Origin: Deltaproteobacteria bacterium
Lineage (GTDB): Bacteria; Desulfobacterota; Desulfobacteria; Desulfobacterales; SURF-15
Direction of reading: 5' to 3'
DNA length: 45,939 nucleotides
Assembly: GCA_019309565.1 (NCBI GenBank)
Contig: JAFDFZ010000034.1
Coordinates: forward strand, 1-45,939
Shown: positions 32,405 to 43,160 of the stretch, piece by piece
How the letters are laid out: each line of letters opens with the position of its first letter
How positions within the stretch are numbered: position 1 is the first letter of the stretch
Notes under the pieces: generated by a model
Seen by the model: the letters and a program-made list of their open reading frames with translations, nothing else
The model's database searches: none
Told to the model about the DNA's origin: nothing
Translations under genes and position numbers: made by a program

Positions 32405-33877
32405 CTACGCATTAAGATTCAAAGAGTCCCCCGGGGCTTTGGGTGCATATTTTCTTAGAAATCTTAAGAGTTCAAGCTCCATTTTTTCGGCGACCTCTGG
32501 ATATCGATCGATCACGTTTTCTTTTTCCATCCAGTCACAGGTGCGATCAAATTCTGTGGGCGATGGCACCCTATACTCATGGTTTATGCGGTATAGCTCC
32601 GGTTCAGATCGCCTGGTTTTTTCTTCTGAAGCCCACATATAATAGCTCCAGTCCTGATTTCGGATTCTCCAGGAAACATCGAACCAGCCCGATACTGCAA
32701 AATCTCGAACCCTTTCCAGCTCACCTGAAAACAACGGCATAAGGCTGTAACCCTCTATTTCATCAGGGCTTGCTGCTGGATAAGCCGCAGATGGTTTGAA
32801 AGCTACTTGCTTGGCATTGGGGCCGATCACCTGCAAAAACTCCAGGATGGTGGGCATAAGATCTGTTGTATCCACAAATCCCTGGTGCCGCTTTCCGCTG
32901 CCCAAACCCTGCGGGTGACGGATGATAAGTGGAATTCGAGCAAGCTCCTCGTAGGGCCAGCTCTCTTCTTTGAGGAAAAGCCCCCTTTCACCGATAAATT
33001 CCCCATGGTCGGACAAGAAAATGATCATGGAATTGTCCATCATATCAAGTTGTTTGAGTTTGTCCAGAAAGATTCCCAGCCACTTATCGCACATGGAGAT
33101 CATGGCTGCATAAAGAGCCCGAATATGGCCGACCTCGGCGTCTGAAAGCACATCGGCATATCCACCAAACCAGCACATGGGAGGGCCAGAGTATTGCGGG
33201 ACAGGATACAGATTCTGAAACTCAAGGGTTGGATCAAACGGCTCATGGGGATCGAAGGAGTCGATCCAAAGAAACAGATTGTCGCGCCGCTCCTGCCGTT
33301 CAAGCCAGCTCATGGCAGCTTTAAACACCCGTGCAATGAAGCGGTTCTCGTCGCTATCCCACCAGGTGTCCACCCACTGTGAAATGTTTCGTAAATACCG
33401 TCTGTAACGTTCCTGAAGATAATCCGCCGGTCTGACCTTTCTGTTCCTCAAGCTTTTTTTGGTTTCAAAAAGATCAAAGCGCACGTTGATATTCGGATCC
33501 GTCCTATAGGCGTCGCCTTCGTTTCCGCGGATCCATTCAACATAATCGAACCCTCTGGCAAAATTACTGTGCGGATACCGGTGCATATGCTCGGTATCTG
33601 AGATGAGGGCCGATGTGTATTCTCTGCTCCATAACAGTTCGCTTAAAAGCTTATCATTCGCAGAAAGGGCCGCCCAGCCTTTTCTGGTGAGCGTGTATTT
33701 TCCAGTAAAGGCAGCGTTGCGGAACGGCAGGGTCGGCAGCCCCTCTGAATACGCCCTGTCGAAGACCATGCTTTCACTGGCCAATTGATCGATATGGGGG
33801 GTTTTGATCCAATTATTTCCGTAACAACCCAAGTGATCCGCCCTTAAGCTATCCAACAACAGCACGATAACGTTCAT
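32405..33877 (-). CDS. Sulfatase/alkaline phosphatase superfamily hydrolase with Thr at the nucleophile position
   Basis: A 490-residue enzyme of the sulfatase fold. MNVIVLLLDSLRADHLGCYG is the metal-binding N-terminus, WIDSFDPHEPFDP and IFLSDHGEFIGERGLFLKEESWPYEELARIPLII are the second metal and substrate regions. The canonical C/S-x-P-S-R nucleophile motif reads T-L-P-F-R (in GLPTLPFRNAAFTGKY). It therefore cannot form formylglycine, and it may act as a phosphodiesterase or phosphotransferase using threonine, as known for other superfamily members. ATG 33877 is chosen because AGGAGG sits seven bases upstream. It directly follows the broken aminotransferase gene. Confidence 0.88.
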   Translation of the reverse strand: MNVIVLLLDSLRADHLGCYGNNWIKTPHIDQLASESMVFDRAYSEGLPTLPFRNAAFTGKYTLTRKGWAALSANDKLLSELLWSREYTSALISDTEHMHRYPHSNFARGFDYVEWIRGNEGDAYRTDPNINVRFDLFETKKSLRNRKVRPADYLQERYRRYLRNISQWVDTWWDSDENRFIARVFKAAMSWLERQERRDNLFLWIDSFDPHEPFDPTLEFQNLYPVPQYSGPPMCWFGGYADVLSDAEVGHIRALYAAMISMCDKWLGIFLDKLKQLDMMDNSMIIFLSDHGEFIGERGLFLKEESWPYEELARIPLIIRHPQGLGSGKRHQGFVDTTDLMPTILEFLQVIGPNAKQVAFKPSAAYPAASPDEIEGYSLMPLFSGELERVRDFAVSGWFDVSWRIRNQDWSYYMWASEEKTRRSEPELYRINHEYRVPSPTEFDRTCDWMEKENVIDRYPEVAEKMELELLRFLRKYAPKAPGDSLNLNA

Positions 33878-33924
33878 TTCCTTACCTCCTGGTTCACAGG
33901 AATCCCTTTTCCGACTCAATATGC

Positions 33925-34453
33925 TCACATCTTATCAATTGGGGTTCCTTCTTTAGCGGTGATTTCGTCGTATTTTGCCATCAGCATCCGGGTCAGCTTC
34001 CCGGGAACTTCAGCTCCAATGGATCTGCCGTCCATTTCCTTTACCGGTACAATTTCTCCAACGGTGCCACATATAAACACTTCATCTGCATTATAAAAAT
34101 CATACAGGGAAAGATCTTTTTCGATGGTACGGATACCGTTGCTTTCCGCTATCCGCATGACCAGCCCTCTTGTAATGCCAACGATGATATGCTTGGTGGT
34201 GGCAGTGAGCAGCAGCTCATCCTTAACCATGGACATCGTGGTGCCATTGGTTTCTGCCACAAACCCGTGTTCGTCCAGCATTCGTCCAGCATGAAAACCC
34301 GGCCATGATAAACGCGAATGCCTTCATGACGCCATCTCTGTGCATAAAACCACTGTCGTAAACTGATATGACGGCTTCGGATTTTTTTACCATCTCTCCG
34401 TTTACATAAACAATCGTATCATCTGCTTTCATTAAAAACCTCTTCGTGGCCAT
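33925..34453 (-). pseudogene. Branched-chain amino-acid aminotransferase-like (class IV), internally deleted
   Basis: Class IV PLP aminotransferase remnant. The N-terminal part IVYVNGEMVKKSEAVISVYDSGFMHRDGVM is followed, after loss of about one base near 34322, by GIRVYHGRVFMLDE in another frame. This then joins MLDEHGFVAETNGTTMSMVKDEL and the C-terminal part to 33925. The intervening 120 or more residues, including the PLP-binding lysine, are absent. The junction carries a perfect tandem of the 11-base unit tgctggacgaa (34270-34291 on the plus strand as ttcgtccagca twice). It cannot be functional. The exact substrate class, branched-chain or D-amino acid, is not resolvable. Confidence 0.85.
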
Positions 34454-34555: not shown

Positions 34556-35560
34556 TTAAGTTAATAGAAATCCCGAACCCAGAGGATCAGAGGGATCTAT
34601 GACATAATTAGAGAATCCAGTGATGAAAGCACTAGAAGTAATTTCTGGGATAGCAGCTTTTAAATCTCCAACAGAAACCTCAGATACTAATCGACCTCGA
34701 AAATTCGTGCCGATTATGCTCTCATTGATAAATTCTTCATTTAACTTAAGCTCATTCTTTGACCACAAAGTAGCCATTCGAGCACATGTACCAGTGCCAC
34801 AAGGTGACCGATCTTGACGAGCTTTTGCCGAAACCACAACGTTTTTTGCGTGAGCTTCAGGATGTGTTGGTTTATCATAGATTAGTACAAAATTAACCTT
34901 ATTGATATTCTGCTTTTTTGGATGACTTACCTTGATTTCTGAGTTTACTAATTTTTTTATGATCATAGCTGCTTCGCTAATTTTATAAGCATTTTTTGTT
35001 TCAACTGTAAGTCCTATATCACTGGCATTTACTATAGCATAGAAGTTTCCTCCAAATGCTATATCCACATTTATAGTACCGATCTTTGGTACACTAATTT
35101 CTTTCGATAAGTAAAAAAATGCTGGAACATTTCGTATTGTAACTTCTTCTACCTTTTCTTTATTAACTTTGGCGTAACCAGTAATTAATCCAGCTGGTGT
35201 ATCTAATACAATTTTTGTATATGGTTCAATATGCTCGACAAATCCACACTCAATGAGGACAGTAATAATACCAATACTGGCATGACCGCACATATCAAGG
35301 TATTTCGTTGTACTCATAAAAATAGCACCAAAGTCTGCTTCGGGACTGCAGGGAGAAGTCAATATTGCACCAAACATGCTACCATGACCTCTAGGTTCAT
35401 GCATTAATGCGTTTCGTAAATGGCCAAATTTTTTACTAAAATATTCTTGTTTATCTTTCATGGTTTTTCCATGTATAGGAGGAATACCACTGTAAACTAC
35501 CCTAGTAGGCATACCTGCAGTATGAGATTCTATTGTTGAAATAAATTTTTTAAAATGCAT
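34556..35560 (-). CDS. Proline racemase / 4-hydroxyproline epimerase
   Basis: A cofactor-independent two-base racemase, 334 residues. Both catalytic cysteines are visible: C91 in YLDMCGHASIG and C254 in RSPCGTGTCARMA. Members with a threonine in place of the second cysteine are dehydratases, so this one should be a racemase or epimerase. Proline racemase and hydroxyproline 2-epimerase cannot be separated here. It is the first gene of an A+T-rich block with a TTT importer, an aspartate-dehydrogenase-like enzyme and proline dehydrogenase, which suits uptake and breakdown of proline or hydroxyproline. The start (ATG 35560) has a weak ribosome site. Confidence 0.9.
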   Translation of the reverse strand: MHFKKFISTIESHTAGMPTRVVYSGIPPIHGKTMKDKQEYFSKKFGHLRNALMHEPRGHGSMFGAILTSPCSPEADFGAIFMSTTKYLDMCGHASIGIITVLIECGFVEHIEPYTKIVLDTPAGLITGYAKVNKEKVEEVTIRNVPAFFYLSKEISVPKIGTINVDIAFGGNFYAIVNASDIGLTVETKNAYKISEAAMIIKKLVNSEIKVSHPKKQNINKVNFVLIYDKPTHPEAHAKNVVVSAKARQDRSPCGTGTCARMATLWSKNELKLNEEFINESIIGTNFRGRLVSEVSVGDLKAAIPEITSSAFITGFSNYVIDPSDPLGSGFLLT

Positions 35561-35998: not shown

Positions 35999-36967
35999 TT
36001 ACTTCGGCCGAATACCCATTGCCTCAGTAACTTTGGCAATGATTTTATAGTGGTCCTCTACCAGCTCCTTTGTTTCTTTTGGCCCTAAAAAAGCTGGCGT
36101 AGCATTGATATTTTTCAATGCTTGAATATATTTAGGATTCTTCATGAGTACATTTTCTGTGACATCTGATAACTTCTCAATAACCTGCGTTGGGGTACCT
36201 TTGGGGGCCAGAATAAGATTGTAACCAAAATAATATCCTTTGTACCCGAGTTGGTCGAAGGTTGGGATTCCCGGGAATTCTTTGACAGGCGCACCCAAGG
36301 CTAAAAGCCTTAATTTTCCATCCCTCACCCGAGGTATCCACAATTGAGGAAAAAACATTGAAATATCAACATGCTTTCCCAATAATGAGGTCATGGCAGG
36401 TGCAGAGCCAGCATGATGAACGTATTTTAATTCTATTCCAGCTTGCATTGCCCAATATTTTGTACTCAATGTTAAATAATTTAAGGAACCAGCACTTCCA
36501 ACGCTATATTTTCCAGGGTTCTTCTTTGCATCTTCAATGAATTCATCCATCGTTTTCCATGGAGATTCAGCGTTAACAGTCAGGCCAAATACTGCTCTTG
36601 TTATTCGGCAAACAGGCTCAAAACTATCAATATCCCATTCTACCTTTGCCATATTTGGACCTACAAGGTAATAAGGAGCGTTCGCTGAAAGAACATAACC
36701 ATCAGGCTTAGCCTTTGCAACGAAAGTAGTTCCGGCGGGAGGCGGAATTTTGTTTATGACTACTATAGGTTGTCCTAAAGCTTTTTCAGCAAAATCTGCC
36801 CAGATACGAATAGTAAGATCTGTATCCCCTCCTGCAGAAAATGGAACAATTACCTTGATAGGCTTCACAGGATACTCCGTTTCAGCCACAACAATTGGAA
36901 TTAAGCTCGATCCTATGAATAGGATAACTCCTACCATTATCATGAACATCTTTTTCAAATAATTCAT
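35999..36967 (-). CDS. tctC: TTT-transporter periplasmic substrate-binding protein (TctC family)
   Basis: Periplasmic receptor for the tripartite tricarboxylate transport system. A signal peptide MNYLKKMFMIMVGVILFIG...VVA precedes YPVKPIKVIVPFSAGGDTDLTIR, the typical N-terminus of the family. Family segments VGSAGSLNYLTLSTKYWAM, VHHAGSAPAMTSLLGKHVDI and LLALGAPVKEFPGIPTFDQLGY follow. The 322 residues match. ATG 36967 is chosen because AGGAGG is correctly spaced for it, while the ATG at 36973 directly abuts that site. The ligand is unknown; the genetic context suggests proline, hydroxyproline or a related compound. Confidence 0.92.
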   Translation of the reverse strand: MNYLKKMFMIMVGVILFIGSSLIPIVVAETEYPVKPIKVIVPFSAGGDTDLTIRIWADFAEKALGQPIVVINKIPPPAGTTFVAKAKPDGYVLSANAPYYLVGPNMAKVEWDIDSFEPVCRITRAVFGLTVNAESPWKTMDEFIEDAKKNPGKYSVGSAGSLNYLTLSTKYWAMQAGIELKYVHHAGSAPAMTSLLGKHVDISMFFPQLWIPRVRDGKLRLLALGAPVKEFPGIPTFDQLGYKGYYFGYNLILAPKGTPTQVIEKLSDVTENVLMKNPKYIQALKNINATPAFLGPKETKELVEDHYKIIAKVTEAMGIRPK

Positions 36968-37099
36968 TTTCATCCTCCTTTCAATTTTTAAACTAATTTT
37001 GGAAATCAATTTTTAACTTAAGCTTAGTATATCACCTCCTTCCACCCCTTATCTCATTTTTAAGAAATACCTCAGCCGTTAATTGAAAGCAAAAATTAA

Positions 37100-38593
37100 T
37101 TAACTCTCTTTATTTTTTTTAATTCTTTTTTTAACTAGGCTTCCGGTGAATATAATAGCTAACAAAAGAAAAAGAGCAGATACCGGTCTAGTTATAAATA
37201 TCATTAAACTTCCATCCGAAAGTGTCAAAGATTGATCTAGAGTACGCTCGAAAATTGGACCTAGGATAAATCCTATGATAAAAGCAGCTGGACTATACTG
37301 CATCTTTTTCATGAAATAACCCAAAAGACTAAAGATAACAAGAGTTGATACATCGAAAAGACTTTGATTAATTGCATATGCTCCTATGAAACATAAAACT
37401 GTGACAATTGAAAAAACTATGTATTTAGGAGAATTGGCCAAACGAATCCAAATAGGAAATCCCATCTTTGCTATGACATAATTAAATAAGTTACATAATA
37501 GAAGGCCAGCATAAATTCCAAAGATTACTCTTGTATGCTCAAAGAATATGCTTGGTCCCGGTGTAATACCTTGAATCATAAAAGCTCCCATCAGAATTGC
37601 TGTTACATCGTCACCTGGTATGCCAAGGGTTAATAATGGTATCATCGTGGCCCCGCAGACTGCATTATTTGCAGCTTCAGGGGCTGCAATTCCTTCCAAT
37701 ATTCCACTCCCAAATTTCTCCGGATTTTTAGAACTTCTTTGGGCCTCAGCATAAGCCATAAAAGCTGCAATCGTAGAACCCATCCCTGGCAATGCTCCAA
37801 TTGCAGTTCCAATAAGAGAAGATTTCCAAATGGTCTTTATGTTTGCTTTAAATTCGGGCCATGTCACTCTGTTGTCGTCGCGTTTTTCTGATTTCTTTAA
37901 ATAAATTTCTCTTCCGGTTCCAGCTAGTCCTACCTGGCTAATCACCTCTGAAAGGGCCAAAAGGCCGATTATCATAGGAATGTATGATATACCACCAATT
38001 AAGAAAGATATGTTAAAAGTAAATCGAGTAGAACCTGTAACCTCTGAAATCCCGATTGTTGATAGCCAAATACCTATAGCGCAAGATATAAGGCCTTTTA
38101 TTAATGAAGAACCAGATACAGAACCTACGATTGTTAAAGCGAAAAATATTAAGGTACAACGTTCAGCAGGGCCCGCTTTTAATGCAAGCAATGATAAAGG
38201 AGCTGCCACAAAGATAAGTACAAGATCACTAAAAGTATCTCCAAGAACAGATGCAATAAGAGCCATATGTAATGCCTTGCCAGCTTTTCCCTGCTTAGCG
38301 AGAGGATAACCATCAAAAGTCGTACAAACAGCAGGAGGCGATCCTGGTGTACGTATTAAAATTGCAGGAATAGATCCACCAAAAGTTCCAGCCTTATAAA
38401 CACCTAATAACAATGGAATTCCGACAATTGGACTTAAGTAAAAGGTTATAGGTAATATAATAGCAATTGCCATAATCCCGGCTATGCCAGGTATTGCTCC
38501 GAAAAGAAGACCTGTTAATATGCCAATCAAAATCCCAGTTATAGGCCCTATAGAAAAGATGGAAAGTAATCCTGAAAATATTTCATTAATCAT
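37100..38593 (-). CDS. tctA: TTT-transporter large permease (TctA family)
   Basis: A 497-residue polytopic inner-membrane protein with about twelve hydrophobic segments. The TctA signature GILTGLLFGAIPGIAGIMAIAIILPITF is near the N-terminus. GTFGGSIPAILIRTPGSPPAVCTTFDGYPLA follows, and later KSSLIGTAIGALPGMGSTIAAFMAYAEAQR and TLGIPGDDVTAILMGAFMIQG. The two Gly/Pro-rich repeats are the family hallmark. It lies nine bases downstream of tctB and about 130 upstream of tctC, so the three form one operon. Confidence 0.94.
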   Translation of the reverse strand: MINEIFSGLLSIFSIGPITGILIGILTGLLFGAIPGIAGIMAIAIILPITFYLSPIVGIPLLLGVYKAGTFGGSIPAILIRTPGSPPAVCTTFDGYPLAKQGKAGKALHMALIASVLGDTFSDLVLIFVAAPLSLLALKAGPAERCTLIFFALTIVGSVSGSSLIKGLISCAIGIWLSTIGISEVTGSTRFTFNISFLIGGISYIPMIIGLLALSEVISQVGLAGTGREIYLKKSEKRDDNRVTWPEFKANIKTIWKSSLIGTAIGALPGMGSTIAAFMAYAEAQRSSKNPEKFGSGILEGIAAPEAANNAVCGATMIPLLTLGIPGDDVTAILMGAFMIQGITPGPSIFFEHTRVIFGIYAGLLLCNLFNYVIAKMGFPIWIRLANSPKYIVFSIVTVLCFIGAYAINQSLFDVSTLVIFSLLGYFMKKMQYSPAAFIIGFILGPIFERTLDQSLTLSDGSLMIFITRPVSALFLLLAIIFTGSLVKKRIKKNKES

Positions 38594-38602
38594 AATTATC
38601 GC

Positions 38603-39106
38603 CTATTCAAAAATAACACCGGTAGGGAGCATAATTCTCATTAAATAATAACAAAGATAGTAGATAACAAAAGGTACAAGAATACTAATACTCAAGATAA
38701 TCTTATAATTTTGTCCCCTTAAAATCAACATCACAAAAAATATTATTAGAGAAGTAGATAAGAAAAAACCAAAAAGATAAAGTAATAAAATATAAGAAAA
38801 TAGAAGTATAATATATATCAAAACATTAACTGGATTTTCTTCAGTAATAGACATTTCTTCATATAATTTCTGTCCCTTTGATATTAAAGTTCTAGCAAAT
38901 ACCTTCTTTCTGGTTTTTAAAAATATAATACTCACAAGGAGTGCACTTAGGATGAGAATACTAAAAATAACAAATTTAGGGAAAAATAGTGAACCTAATT
39001 TTGTTTCAAATCCACCATATACAAAATTATGCATAGTAAGCAAAAATAAAAAGCTAAGAAAAAAAAGTAAAATACCAACTATTAGATCCTGAATGTCTTT
39101 ATTCAT
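38603..39106 (-). CDS. tctB: TTT-transporter small membrane subunit (TctB family)
   Basis: A 167-residue protein with about four hydrophobic helices (residues about 8-30, 40-64, 97-118, 123-160) and few motifs, as in all TctB proteins. Assignment rests on size, topology (LIVGILLFFLSFLFLL, FLSTSLIIFFVMLILRG) and its place directly upstream of tctA. This gene is strikingly A+T-rich compared with the core genes to the left. It is the first transporter gene of the tctB-tctA-tctC operon. Confidence 0.85.
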   Translation of the reverse strand: MNKDIQDLIVGILLFFLSFLFLLTMHNFVYGGFETKLGSLFFPKFVIFSILILSALLVSIIFLKTRKKVFARTLISKGQKLYEEMSITEENPVNVLIYIILLFSYILLLYLFGFFLSTSLIIFFVMLILRGQNYKIILSISILVPFVIYYLCYYLMRIMLPTGVIFE

Positions 39107-39376: not shown

Positions 39377-40186
39377 CTATGTTCCGATATGCACTGTGCT
39401 CTGATTCAATTCCAGAAGAAATGAAACGGCAGACTGCCACGACATATTACCTATCCTAATAGATTCACTCACTGGACGATGAGTGAATTTCAATGACAAT
39501 TTTCCAATTTCACCCTCCATGAAAAGTTTGTGCTGAGCACACTTTATCGATGGATCAGAAATCAACTTCACGGTAAGCTTATTCCATGCTTTCGTTGCAA
39601 TGAGGACGGTGGCTGCAATGTTAATATGCTTGGGATATCTTTTAACAGCCTCTTGCGCTGATCCCTCAAATAGAAGGGTCGGTCCATTTTTCAAACTGCT
39701 TTGCAATTCTCTATTCTCGACGATATCAAAATTCTTTGAAGATTGACGAGAAACAAGGAGTAATTTATCAATCCTTGTCAATCGAGCGGCTTTTAGTATA
39801 TCCATTCCACCGATAGCGCCCGAAGGTATATAAATCCTGCTCTTCGATTTGTACGCTGTGTGACAGACCCTCTCCCAAAAAGCCTGGTCCACAAATGGGC
39901 CCGTGCTCAGGGCCATTAGATCAATTCCCGAGGATAGGATAAAAACTGCCCAATCGCGAATGAATTGCGCTGAAGCCGTTTCAAGAATAAGATCTACACC
40001 TTTTAATGCATCCCTTATATTGTTTGTCCAGCAGCAGTGGTGGTCCTTAACGATCTTTTGGGCCCGTTCGTTGTATTTGCGTGAAACAAGAAAGACCAGC
40101 TGAATTCTGTCCCGAAAGTTTTTCTGCCTTAAAAAGTTTGCAAGACTATATCCCAGTCTCCCACAGCCTACCAAACCCACTTTCAT
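39377..40186 (-). CDS. Aspartate dehydrogenase-like NAD(P)-dependent oxidoreductase
   Basis: A 269-residue protein with the N-terminal Rossmann motif KVGLVGCGRLGYSLANFL. The family signature IPSGAIGGMDILKAA is followed by KRYPKHINIAATVLIAT, where the histidine is typical of the L-aspartate dehydrogenase catalytic region. L-aspartate dehydrogenase converts aspartate to iminoaspartate/oxaloacetate and ammonia, or feeds NAD synthesis. The actual substrate here may be another amino acid. ATG 40186 has GGAGG six bases upstream. It sits in the proline-utilisation block between proline dehydrogenase and the TTT genes. Confidence 0.82.
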   Translation of the reverse strand: MKVGLVGCGRLGYSLANFLRQKNFRDRIQLVFLVSRKYNERAQKIVKDHHCCWTNNIRDALKGVDLILETASAQFIRDWAVFILSSGIDLMALSTGPFVDQAFWERVCHTAYKSKSRIYIPSGAIGGMDILKAARLTRIDKLLLVSRQSSKNFDIVENRELQSSLKNGPTLLFEGSAQEAVKRYPKHINIAATVLIATKAWNKLTVKLISDPSIKCAQHKLFMEGEIGKLSLKFTHRPVSESIRIGNMSWQSAVSFLLELNQSTVHIGT

Positions 40187-40545: not shown

Positions 40546-41475
40546 CTAACTAGTAAACAGGTTTTTCAGAACAAATGTCAGGTTAGCCGGACGCTCGGCC
40601 AGCCGCCGCATATACCAGGGAAACCAGGCATCGCCATAGGCAATGAGTACGGCAAGTTTATATCCTTCATCTGATAGGCGTGTTTGTTCAGCAGTTTTAA
40701 TTCCAAAGAGCATCTGAAATTCTAGGTTCTCCCGTGAGAGATTCATCTCTTTTGCAAAGTTCTCAATCTTTGTAATTAGTTTGATATCATGGGTGGCAAA
40801 AGCAGCTCTGATACCACCCTGCTGACTCGCCTTCAAAAGTTTTTTTGCTAATTTAAAGAAATTTTGATCAACGTCCTTTTTACGCTTGAAGGCGATTGCC
40901 GGAGGTTCCTTATATGCCCCTTTAACCAGGCGGATTTTAGGAAATAATTCCAATAGGTTTGAAATATCTGCATCTGTCCTGTAGAGATATGCTTGTAAGC
41001 ACAAACCTACATTTTCATACGATAGCTTAATCCGCCTGTAAAAATCAATAGTGAGATCGGTGTAAGCACTACCTTCCATGTCTATCCAGACTTGATTTTT
41101 TTGATCATGCGATTTCTGGACAATGGACTTAAAGTTCTCAAAGGTTCGTTCAACAGAGAGATCCAGTCCGATCTGGGTTAATTTTAGCGATATTTCAGTA
41201 GGTAAATTCTTCTCGCTGATTTTATCAAGGACTTCCAAATAATGCTTCGTGACCGATTCCGCCTCGCTAAGATCCGTTATGTTTTCGCCTAAGTAGGTAA
41301 AAATACTTGATATTTTCTTTGTGTTGAATGCTTGCGCTTCTCTAAGAGCATCTTCCAGTTTTTCTCCCGGCATAAAACGCTTTACGGCTTTTTGCATAAA
41401 ACGGTAATTTGGCACATGATATTTTAACCATTGATTTTCCGATCCCCATAACAACATTTTCTTTAAAACTGCCAC
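40546..41475 (-). CDS. Proline dehydrogenase (monofunctional)
   Basis: FAD enzyme that oxidises L-proline to pyrroline-5-carboxylate. The 309-residue barrel shows EISLKLTQIGLDLSVERTF, VWIDMEGSAYTDLTIDFYRR, VGLCLQAYLYRTDADI, IRLVKGAYKEP and, at the C-terminus, YMRRLAERPANLTFVL with the substrate-binding arginine pair. No P5C dehydrogenase domain is fused or found in the window. It is divergent from the recombinase-GntR regulator, separated by an A+T-rich spacer of about 490 bases. The racemase, transporter and this enzyme make a plausible proline or hydroxyproline route. Confidence 0.92.
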   Translation of the reverse strand: MAVLKKMLLWGSENQWLKYHVPNYRFMQKAVKRFMPGEKLEDALREAQAFNTKKISSIFTYLGENITDLSEAESVTKHYLEVLDKISEKNLPTEISLKLTQIGLDLSVERTFENFKSIVQKSHDQKNQVWIDMEGSAYTDLTIDFYRRIKLSYENVGLCLQAYLYRTDADISNLLELFPKIRLVKGAYKEPPAIAFKRKKDVDQNFFKLAKKLLKASQQGGIRAAFATHDIKLITKIENFAKEMNLSRENLEFQMLFGIKTAEQTRLSDEGYKLAVLIAYGDAWFPWYMRRLAERPANLTFVLKNLFTS

Positions 41476-41661
41476 TAAGAACTCCTTTTTATTGGCAGAA
41501 TGTTACTAAATTCATTCAGCCATCAAAGGCTTTCTCTTTTCAAGGTCTGTGACATTACGGTCGATTCTTCAACCGCTTCAGCAGTGCCTATCCGATGTGC
41601 AAACAATAATTTGACTGAAATCATCCTCCACAAACTAGCAGATATCGAATGCTAATTTTTG

Positions 41662-41689
41662 TATATATAATATAAAATGAAGTTGTCAA
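41662..41689 (-). promoter_or_regulatory. Candidate promoter of the proline dehydrogenase operon
   Basis: On the minus strand TTGACA (41684-41689), a 16-base spacer and TATATA (41662-41667) point toward the proline dehydrogenase gene, leaving a leader of nearly 190 bases. Between this and the divergent promoter at 41897 lies A+T-rich sequence with no gene. Confidence 0.45.
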
Positions 41690-41896: not shown

Positions 41897-41925
41897 TTGA
41901 CATTCAATGCATAATAATTTAATAT
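41897..41925 (+). promoter_or_regulatory. Promoter of the recombinase-GntR regulator gene
   Basis: TTGACA (41897-41902), a 17-base spacer and TAATAT (41920-41925) lie 38 bases upstream of the chosen start codon. The ATG at 41907 lies inside this promoter, which supports ATG 41964 as the true start. Confidence 0.55.
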
Positions 41926-41963: not shown

Positions 41964-43160
41964 ATGTTGGGAAAGCCGCTTCAAAGGAAACGATCGCTTT
42001 CAGCCGAGCCCATCAGAAACGCATATGACATTGAGCGTATTAGAAGATTGCTTAGCCACAAACCTAGAGATTTGCTTTTATTTGAATTCGCCACACAGAC
42101 AGGTTTGCCTGCAACAATCTTGCTCAAACTAAAAGTGAAAGACCTTCAAGGATTGAACGTAGGAGACAGATTGTCGTTTCAAGGAACCGAGGTAAACCGG
42201 GCTTGTTCTGCCACCATAAATGAAACCGTCTATCAAACCTTTTGCAAGTATTTAGAGCAACTGGGTCCCTCTGAAGACGATTATCTGTTCAAATCCAGAA
42301 AGGGATCGAAAGCTTTGTCTGTCAGTAGTGTTTCCCGTCTGGTAAAGGGCTGGTTTAAAAGAGCAAGTCTTATAGGACTCAGTGGTATTTTATCATTACG
42401 GAAAACGTGGGAGGTTCATTATCGATCGAACCCACAATCAAAGCCAAAATCATATATTGAGGAAAGCTCAAATCAGGCACTTAAACCCATCCAACTTCCT
42501 ACGCGACAGGAGGTGGTGTATAAGGAGCTTCAAAAAGCGATTGTATCTGGACGAATACTTCCAGGCGAAAGACTCGGGGTGGAAGATGTGGCCAGACAGA
42601 TGAAGGTCAGTCGGATACCTGTTCGCGAAGCCTTTGGAAGGCTTGAAGCACGCGGTTTTATTTCGACAACGGGGAATAGAGGAATTGTGGTAAATGAACT
42701 GTCTAGGGCGAGCCTGAAAGAAATTCTCGAACTAAGGATTATGTTAGAAGGCTTGGCCGCTGAAAAGGCAGCCGTGCGGTGCAGTGAGGAAGCGATAAAT
42801 CGAGTGCAAGCTTTGCATCAACAATATGCCACGGCTCGAAAGGGTATTGAGGCTGATCAGCTGCTTCATACCAACATGCAGTTTCATCTCGCTGTTTATC
42901 GGGAAGCCAACATGCCAATTTTACAGGAGATAATCTTTTTTCTATGGAGTAAAGTCAGCCCTTATTACCACATCTTGTTCCGGCAGGCAGAGAAACCTAA
43001 CCCGCGGGCGGGAATAGAGTATCATCAGAAAATAGTTGATGCCATGAGAAATCATAACCCAAAAGAAATCAGAAGATGGGTACAGGCAGACCTCACAGAC
43101 TCAGCGATGTTTGTTATCGAATTGTTCGATATTTACAGAAAAGCTCAGAAAGGAGGTTGA
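41964..43160 (+). CDS. Fusion of a degenerate tyrosine-recombinase domain with a GntR/FadR-family regulator
   Basis: A 398-residue protein. Residues about 16-155 follow a tyrosine-recombinase catalytic domain: RDLLLFEFATQTGLPATILLKLKVKDL, then EDDYLFKSRKGSKALSVSSVSRLVKGWF and SGILSLRKTWEVHY. The first catalytic Arg is Pro49, the His of H-x-L-R is Leu143, only Arg146 remains, and no nucleophilic Tyr is evident, so it should not recombine DNA. Residues about 178-245 are a GntR winged helix (VVYKELQKAIVSGRILPGERLGVEDVARQMKVSRIPVREAFGRLEARGF). Residues about 250-395 are a FadR-type ligand domain (MQFHLAVYREANMPIL, EYHQKIVDAMRNHNPKEIRRWV). ATG 41964 has AAGGAG upstream and a promoter at 41897. It is divergent from proline dehydrogenase, and probably controls that block. 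Confidence 0.85.
   Translation: MLGKPLQRKRSLSAEPIRNAYDIERIRRLLSHKPRDLLLFEFATQTGLPATILLKLKVKDLQGLNVGDRLSFQGTEVNRACSATINETVYQTFCKYLEQLGPSEDDYLFKSRKGSKALSVSSVSRLVKGWFKRASLIGLSGILSLRKTWEVHYRSNPQSKPKSYIEESSNQALKPIQLPTRQEVVYKELQKAIVSGRILPGERLGVEDVARQMKVSRIPVREAFGRLEARGFISTTGNRGIVVNELSRASLKEILELRIMLEGLAAEKAAVRCSEEAINRVQALHQQYATARKGIEADQLLHTNMQFHLAVYREANMPILQEIIFFLWSKVSPYYHILFRQAEKPNPRAGIEYHQKIVDAMRNHNPKEIRRWVQADLTDSAMFVIELFDIYRKAQKGG

Follow-up and report, generated by a model that had tools for sequence, protein, structure and literature searches.

A catalytically incomplete tyrosine recombinase in front of a GntR/FCD regulator: a predicted additional DNA-binding head in Desulfobacterota

We describe here a family of bacterial regulators in which a truncated, catalytically incomplete tyrosine recombinase stands in front of a GntR winged helix and an FCD effector domain. 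The member studied is encoded at positions 41964..43160 (plus strand) of contig JAFDFZ010000034.1 (GenBank assembly GCA_019309565.1, Deltaproteobacteria bacterium, Desulfobacterales, SURF-15), whose 45,939 nucleotides are called the window below. For the fusion family, the domain order, the predicted fold, the catalytic loss, the split from standalone recombinases in the tree, the purifying selection, the divergent position and the enrichment of a half-site are established. We propose, with a probability of roughly 0.6, that the protein is a ligand-responsive repressor of itself and of a divergent proline/amino-acid operon, the dead recombinase being a predicted extra DNA-binding head.

The gene encodes 398 residues in the order recombinase domain, variable linker, GntR winged helix, FCD. 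The truncated tyrosine-recombinase catalytic domain occupies residues 13-159 (42000..42440, plus strand, as are the other parts), as seen by profile, alignment and model; only about 12 residues precede it, and there is no core-binding domain. It is followed by a linker (residues 156-178, 42429..42497) that is modelled with low confidence (predicted local distance difference test, pLDDT, below 50 at residues 156-172), by the GntR winged helix (residues 182-243, 42507..42692; PF00392, expect value E 2e-14, above the cut-off) and by the FCD effector domain (residues 253-377, 42720..43094; PF07729, E 6e-22), which is of an all-helical family. Residues 1-180, with the recombinase fold, stand before the winged helix, which is not N-terminal. 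The metal/effector ligands of FCD domains are an acidic residue and histidines; E253, R258, H308, H354 and D376 are invariant in all 108 aligned homologues. A prediction made earlier from the DNA alone (the original prediction) had read the locus as one 398-codon gene joining a recombinase-like N-domain to GntR/FCD, and had proposed superposing residues 16-155 on XerD. Domain profiles, predicted fold and homologues confirm that reading, and the predicted structure of the N-domain can be superposed on those of XerA, XerH and Cre.

The active site of tyrosine recombinases is made up of R, D/E, K, H, R, H/W and Y. We took these seven core residues from the listing for Cre, XerH and lambda Int in PMC10516654 (Table 3) and located them in an alignment that also contains 27 short standalone recombinases. 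At the first five catalytic places the window protein has P49, I52, E76, L143 and R146, while the last two are without counterpart; R146 is the only one of the seven to be kept. The Y in the last alignment column is Y186 of the GntR helix, outside the recombinase domain. Three lost cleavage residues had been counted originally, which is an undercount, as the joint alignment has six of the seven missing. Of 209 N-domains from fusions, 12 retain the first Arg, 74 the Lys, 3 the His and 196 the second Arg (the R146 place); the first Arg and the His are never retained together, and there is no Tyr and no last His/Trp inside the domain. The 27 counted standalone recombinases, unlike the fusions, have the full catalytic set except for one Lys: R-I, D, K and H-II are each present in 26-27 of them and mostly lost among the 209. 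Five standalone members of the tree below (L052, L054, L057, L060 and L061) are outside this count, and one of them, L060, is itself degenerate by eye, with several catalytic residues lost.

A search with the window protein gives 371 homologues at E 1e-3. The alignment A1 holds 108 of the best 120 of these 371, the other 12 having been dropped only to shorten it. GntR and FCD are present in all 108, and the Phage_integrase profile matches in 99 (E up to 0.01), which is the co-occurrence in one protein family that the original prediction had proposed to look for by profile search. When the window protein was used as the query for the company that the N-domain keeps, the best 120 of 138 matches were GntR proteins except for the standalone P0181; one more exception, P0136, is a partial record. 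Named genomes carrying the fusion include Desulfofustis glycolicus, Desulfopila sp. IMCC35008, Desulfococcaceae and Desulfosarcinaceae, and it also occurs at two loci of one SAR324 record set and in one record labelled Spirochaetes. The homologues, together with the presence of the fusion in named genomes that were assembled independently, rule out that two genes were joined locally here or that the assembly is at fault; the fusion marks a conserved family and is not an accident. The family is sparse, since few of the sampled genomes match: 12 of 389 in the class sample and 2 of 395 in the phylum sample at E up to 1e-70, the latter being the window's own genome and G559 (a match of the C-terminal half only), and 8 of 291 in the order sample at E up to 1e-60. 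The N-domain profile matches in 91 of 291 genomes of the class, in many cases in open reading frames of about 200 residues; in the window's own genome no second match was found at E up to 1e-5, with 12 of 19 candidates scored. No published description of a recombinase-GntR fusion was found in a search of titles and abstract openings, with the subscription literature mostly outside it, in keeping with the earlier remark that the fusion is not known as a described regulator class.

The closest relatives of the N-domain, by both sequence and tree, are short standalone tyrosine recombinases of about 200 residues (P0181, L027, L032; PHROG 216-like). Those of the Desulfobacterota type are 35-42% identical to it, and none of the 27 counted is fused to GntR. 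In a tree of 88 N-domains (every third row of A1 plus 21 loci), a branch with a Shimodaira-Hasegawa-like approximate likelihood-ratio test (SH-aLRT) value of 100 separates 57 fused from 31 standalone members. A tree of 113 (about every fourth row plus the loci) again places the 68 fused on one side of a branch and 45 standalone on the other. Both trees are quick ones, without bootstrap, and their root was not inferred.

The N-domain is under purifying selection. The ratio of nonsynonymous to synonymous divergence (dN/dS) is about 0.15-0.23 in three pairs from one tree clade (dN 0.108, 0.132 and 0.133; dS 0.468, 0.902 and 0.723), and 0.13-0.16 for the GntR and FCD remainder in the same pairs. 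Mean pairwise identity is 47% in the N-domain, 17.5% in the linker, 62% in GntR and 51% in FCD. The helix of residues 120-133 (42321..42362) is placed, on the basis of the model and the profile alignment, where recombinases read the major groove; the corresponding helix reads DNA in Cre. Its residues S122, S124 and W130 are kept in 87-100% of the fusions and are variable in the standalone recombinases, and the positions conserved solely in the latter include catalytic ones. A putative DNA-reading helix is in this way conserved while the catalytic sites are relaxed. R27, R35, K113 and W130 are invariant in the 108 aligned members, the N-domain carries a mean net charge of +8, positive in 107 of 108, and residues 110-134 are net positive in all of them. 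The earlier view of the N-domain as a DNA-binding module is consistent with this helix and charge, and it stands as a prediction from sequence.

By its winged helix and FCD domain the fusion belongs to the GntR/FCD superfamily (VanR-type), with an added front domain. McbR/YncC, PmiR and Atu1419 begin with the winged helix, whereas the fusion has about 180 residues of recombinase fold in front of it. A precedent for a dead recombinase as repressor is MrpR (YopR), the master repressor of SPbeta, alongside which SroF of phage phi3T is a close known system. According to PMC10516654, MrpR consists of core-binding and catalytic domains with three of the seven residues, residues 1-84 preceding the catalytic domain; it shows no recombination and acts as a repressor of SPbeta genes through an element of 15 base pairs (bp). 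The fusion shares with it the recombinase fold with lost catalytic residues, but is without a core-binding domain and hence falls outside the MrpR group by the features tested. Crypton-derived genes, whose architecture is different from that of the fusion, are likewise domesticated tyrosine recombinases, but eukaryotic. PMC3212892 describes them as recombinases domesticated in host genes.

The fusion gene is divergent to a proline dehydrogenase gene (40546..41475; PF01619, E 1e-33). Beyond it in the window block come an aspartate-dehydrogenase-like protein (39377..40186; PF01958, E 7e-19), the tripartite tricarboxylate transporter components TctB (38603..39106; PF07331), TctA (37100..38593; PF01970) and TctC (35999..37009; PF03401), and a proline racemase family protein (34556..35560; PF05544, E 3e-114), all on the minus strand. 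That the regulator adjoins the block it would control, as originally claimed, is upheld by this layout, which recurs as a divergent upstream gene in 19 of the 20 loci whose upstream gene is visible. In L015 the upstream gene is 1.2 kilobases off, and L012, L020 and L022 end before any upstream gene. Neighbours were named by Pfam where scanned and otherwise by eye. The proline racemase family is also found near the fusion gene in L024 (Pfam) and L023 (by eye), and Tct components are found near it in the window, L085 and L023. Pfam further identifies class IV aminotransferases (L009, L084, L085), DAP-epimerase family proteins (DapF-like; L010, L014), a URO-D-like protein (L010) and MTTB methyltransferases (L010, L013). 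Also named by Pfam are SBP_bac_5 (L016, L018) and SBP_bac_3 (L017) proteins of ATP-binding cassette uptake systems, thiamine pyrophosphate enzymes (L019, L037) and a class III aminotransferase (L021). The upstream genes mostly belong to uptake or to amino-acid/betaine metabolism, and because of these neighbours we infer that the effector is amino-acid- or betaine-like.

Three other features of the window were noted. Directly downstream of the fusion gene there is a broken transposase (rve, PF00665; 43460-44222, plus strand) in two overlapping frames. Remains of a class IV aminotransferase are found at 33925-34440 (minus strand), with a C-terminal piece (PF01063) and, by eye, an N-terminal piece in another frame. 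A sulfatase-family protein (PF00884) is encoded at 32405-33928 (minus strand); similar-looking counterparts, judged by eye, occur near proline racemase and Tct genes in L023 (15077-16654, Desulfofustis) and L024 (12652-14229, Desulfopila).

Upstream of the fusion genes, the half-site AATGTYA is enriched (33 sites, in 16 of 20 regulator intergenic regions, compared with 4.9 ± 2.0 in dinucleotide shuffles and with 15 of 100 intergenic regions taken from the same loci as controls), the pattern having been picked from the same data that show the enrichment. Without near copies, 10 of 14 regions still contain the motif, with 21 sites where 3.3 are expected. At least two half-sites are present in 10 of the 20 intergenic regions. 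With 18 copies against 15.6 expected, the motif does not exceed chance level in the window as a whole, and the 488-bp intergenic region contains three of these copies. One of the three, AATGTCA (41898..41904, minus strand), overlaps the -35 box of the regulator itself, at 66 bp from the start, and is a candidate autoregulation site; the same distance is found in L009, L023 and L081. The promoter-like TTGACA-N17-TAATAT to which this box belongs (41897..41925, plus strand) is a consensus match only, the scan having found no more such sites than shuffles. The other two, AATGTTA (41499..41505, plus strand) and AATGTCA (41550..41556, minus strand), are motif matches near the proline dehydrogenase start. 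A putative -35 box TTGACA of the divergent operon (41684..41689, minus strand) lies at the shared TGTCAAGAAAT motif position and is not among the promoter-scan sites.

Motif models were also built, each tested against six shuffled controls. The motif set excludes L025, whose start is unclear, L022, for which there is no upstream DNA, L079, where the start adjoins the aminotransferase, and the first 200 bases of the L014 region. A 16-bp model scored 89, compared with 47-54 in the controls, and picked out the divergent promoter's TTGACA box; a 17-bp palindrome model scored 58, compared with 25-34. Models of a 14-bp palindrome and of 24 bp were dropped as GC-rich or coding-biased patterns. Of the TTGACA sites, 10 of 36 in the targets and 4 of 37 in the controls continue with TT. 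By eye, each of the three closest non-fused GntR-FCD paralogues (L069, L077, L078) has the palindrome TTGATCAA in its upstream region; it was found in none of the 20 fusion regulator regions, three paralogues being too few for a claim.

In the mechanism that we propose, the FCD and GntR parts would hold together a dimer or tetramer, whose winged helices would sit on ATGT-type half-sites between the two divergent genes. Its two or four recombinase heads, each tethered by a flexible linker of about 20 residues, would make additional contacts with flanking or second sites through helix 120-133, the retained R146 and the basic face. The regulator's own promoter, whose -35 box is covered by a site, and the divergent operon would be repressed until an amino-acid- or betaine-like effector binds to FCD, releases the DNA and opens both promoters. 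In Cre, the part that is missing here also carries the helix that docks on the next subunit. Because the truncation removes the nucleophile part together with this docking helix, it would favour holding of DNA over assembly.

A number of observations weigh against this mechanism. AATGTYA is absent from 4 of the 20 regions, part of its enrichment overlaps TTGACA -35 boxes, and some of the loci are near relatives, among them L010, L011, L019 and L037, where the site is found 38-40 bp ahead of the start. For a split test, all patterns containing TTGAC or GTCAA were excluded in advance; the motif occurs there in 10 of 10 regions of one half, as ninth to tenth of the twelve best patterns and not the first, and in the held-out half in 6 of 10 regions (2.0 expected; the largest of 100 shuffles gave 5). 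AATGTTA alone, once near copies are removed, has 8 sites in 3 of 14 regions (2.2 expected). The comparison with non-fused regulators covers the three closest paralogues only, by eye, and the upstream gene of L026 is not divergent. On the protein side, N-domain dN/dS is slightly above that of the remainder in two of the three pairs, all of which come from a single clade, the fourth pair being saturated in dS; K113 and W130 are not fully invariant in the separately aligned 21 loci; and the charge of +8 is below the +14 of standalone recombinases, which could mean weaker DNA contact. Finally, AATGTYA resembles half of ATGTATACAT, given in PMC7797058 as the operator of the GntR/FCD protein Atu1419, and because of this likeness the GntR head alone may be its reader.

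An alternative that we regard as unlikely is that the recombinase part stays off the DNA and is a protein-protein or oligomerisation module joining GntR dimers, while the GntR heads alone read and loop DNA. Recombinases do assemble as multimers, and besides the likeness of the motif to half of a VanR-type operator, its repetition and the lower charge fit this idea. PMC7797058 reports that Atu1419, a tetramer without any recombinase part, loops two palindromes 190 bp apart. Because Atu1419 loops without a recombinase head, repeated half-sites alone do not point to one, and the bridging of two sites or recognition of a composite operator that had originally been suggested is a possibility only. 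A spacing of about 138 bp between two inverted sites in L011, L019 and L037 was dropped as looping evidence, as these loci are close relatives. What speaks for contact of the domain with DNA is that its conservation is concentrated on the putative reading helix and R146, and that residues 110-134 are net positive throughout A1. That the N-domain is instead an inert remnant carried by an ordinary GntR/FCD regulator would fit the loss of its catalytic residues and its absence from the closest non-fused GntR paralogues; we consider this improbable, as selection on it is similar to that on the remainder of the protein, R27, R35, K113 and W130 are invariant in the aligned members, and the domain has been retained through long divergence. 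It is highly improbable that the protein still takes part in recombination, alone or paired with an intact short recombinase. R146 is kept in 196 of the 209 and a Lys at its place in 74, and the N-domain is matched in 91 of 291 genomes of the class, many in frames of about 200 residues, but the domain has neither Tyr nor last His/Trp, the first Arg and the His never occur together, and the search of the window's genome described above gave no second N-domain.

A separate design was found by a class-wide search with the N-domain profile. It consists of a short tyrosine recombinase, two PAS domains and a LuxR-type helix-turn-helix, and is represented by 19 database proteins (P0191-P0209) and by L098 (1596-3515), L099 (minus strand) and L100 (2379-4274). 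The same kind of short recombinase precedes a sensor and a helix-turn-helix as in the GntR fusion; unlike there, the recombinase domain is full-length. These proteins form a clade of their own (18 rows, SH-aLRT 96). The last His and the Tyr are present in 19 of 19, the His in 15 of 19, the first Arg in 16 of 18 and the Lys in 2 of 18, being lost in the other 16. L098 and L099, judged by eye and outside this count, differ from most of the 19 in retaining the Lys while having other residues in place of the first Arg and the His. Such proteins may be recombinases under sensor control or form another class of regulator, and no publication on them was found in one literature search. The minus strand of the reversed locus L101 (585-1622) also has an open frame of 346 residues, stop to stop, in which a short recombinase that looks intact by eye is preceded by about 150 further, uncharacterised residues.

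As a broader and more tentative proposal, to which we give somewhat less than an even chance, sensor proteins of Desulfobacterota and neighbours would have acquired DNA-reading heads through at least two domestications of short tyrosine recombinases, in recombinase-GntR-FCD and in recombinase-PAS-LuxR proteins, which would make up a new class of transcription regulator. In the GntR class, cutting would have been lost by truncation and mutation and site recognition fixed throughout the family. The result would be ligand-controlled proteins with four heads, able to read composite operators or to pin two promoters together. If this is true, an enzyme of mobile elements has entered host metabolic control by giving up cutting, keeping its fold and fixing one recognition helix, and the family would be a host-gene case of a dead recombinase with a metabolite-binding domain attached. 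The fusion would also offer a regulator for the amino-acid/betaine operons of sulfate-reducer relatives.
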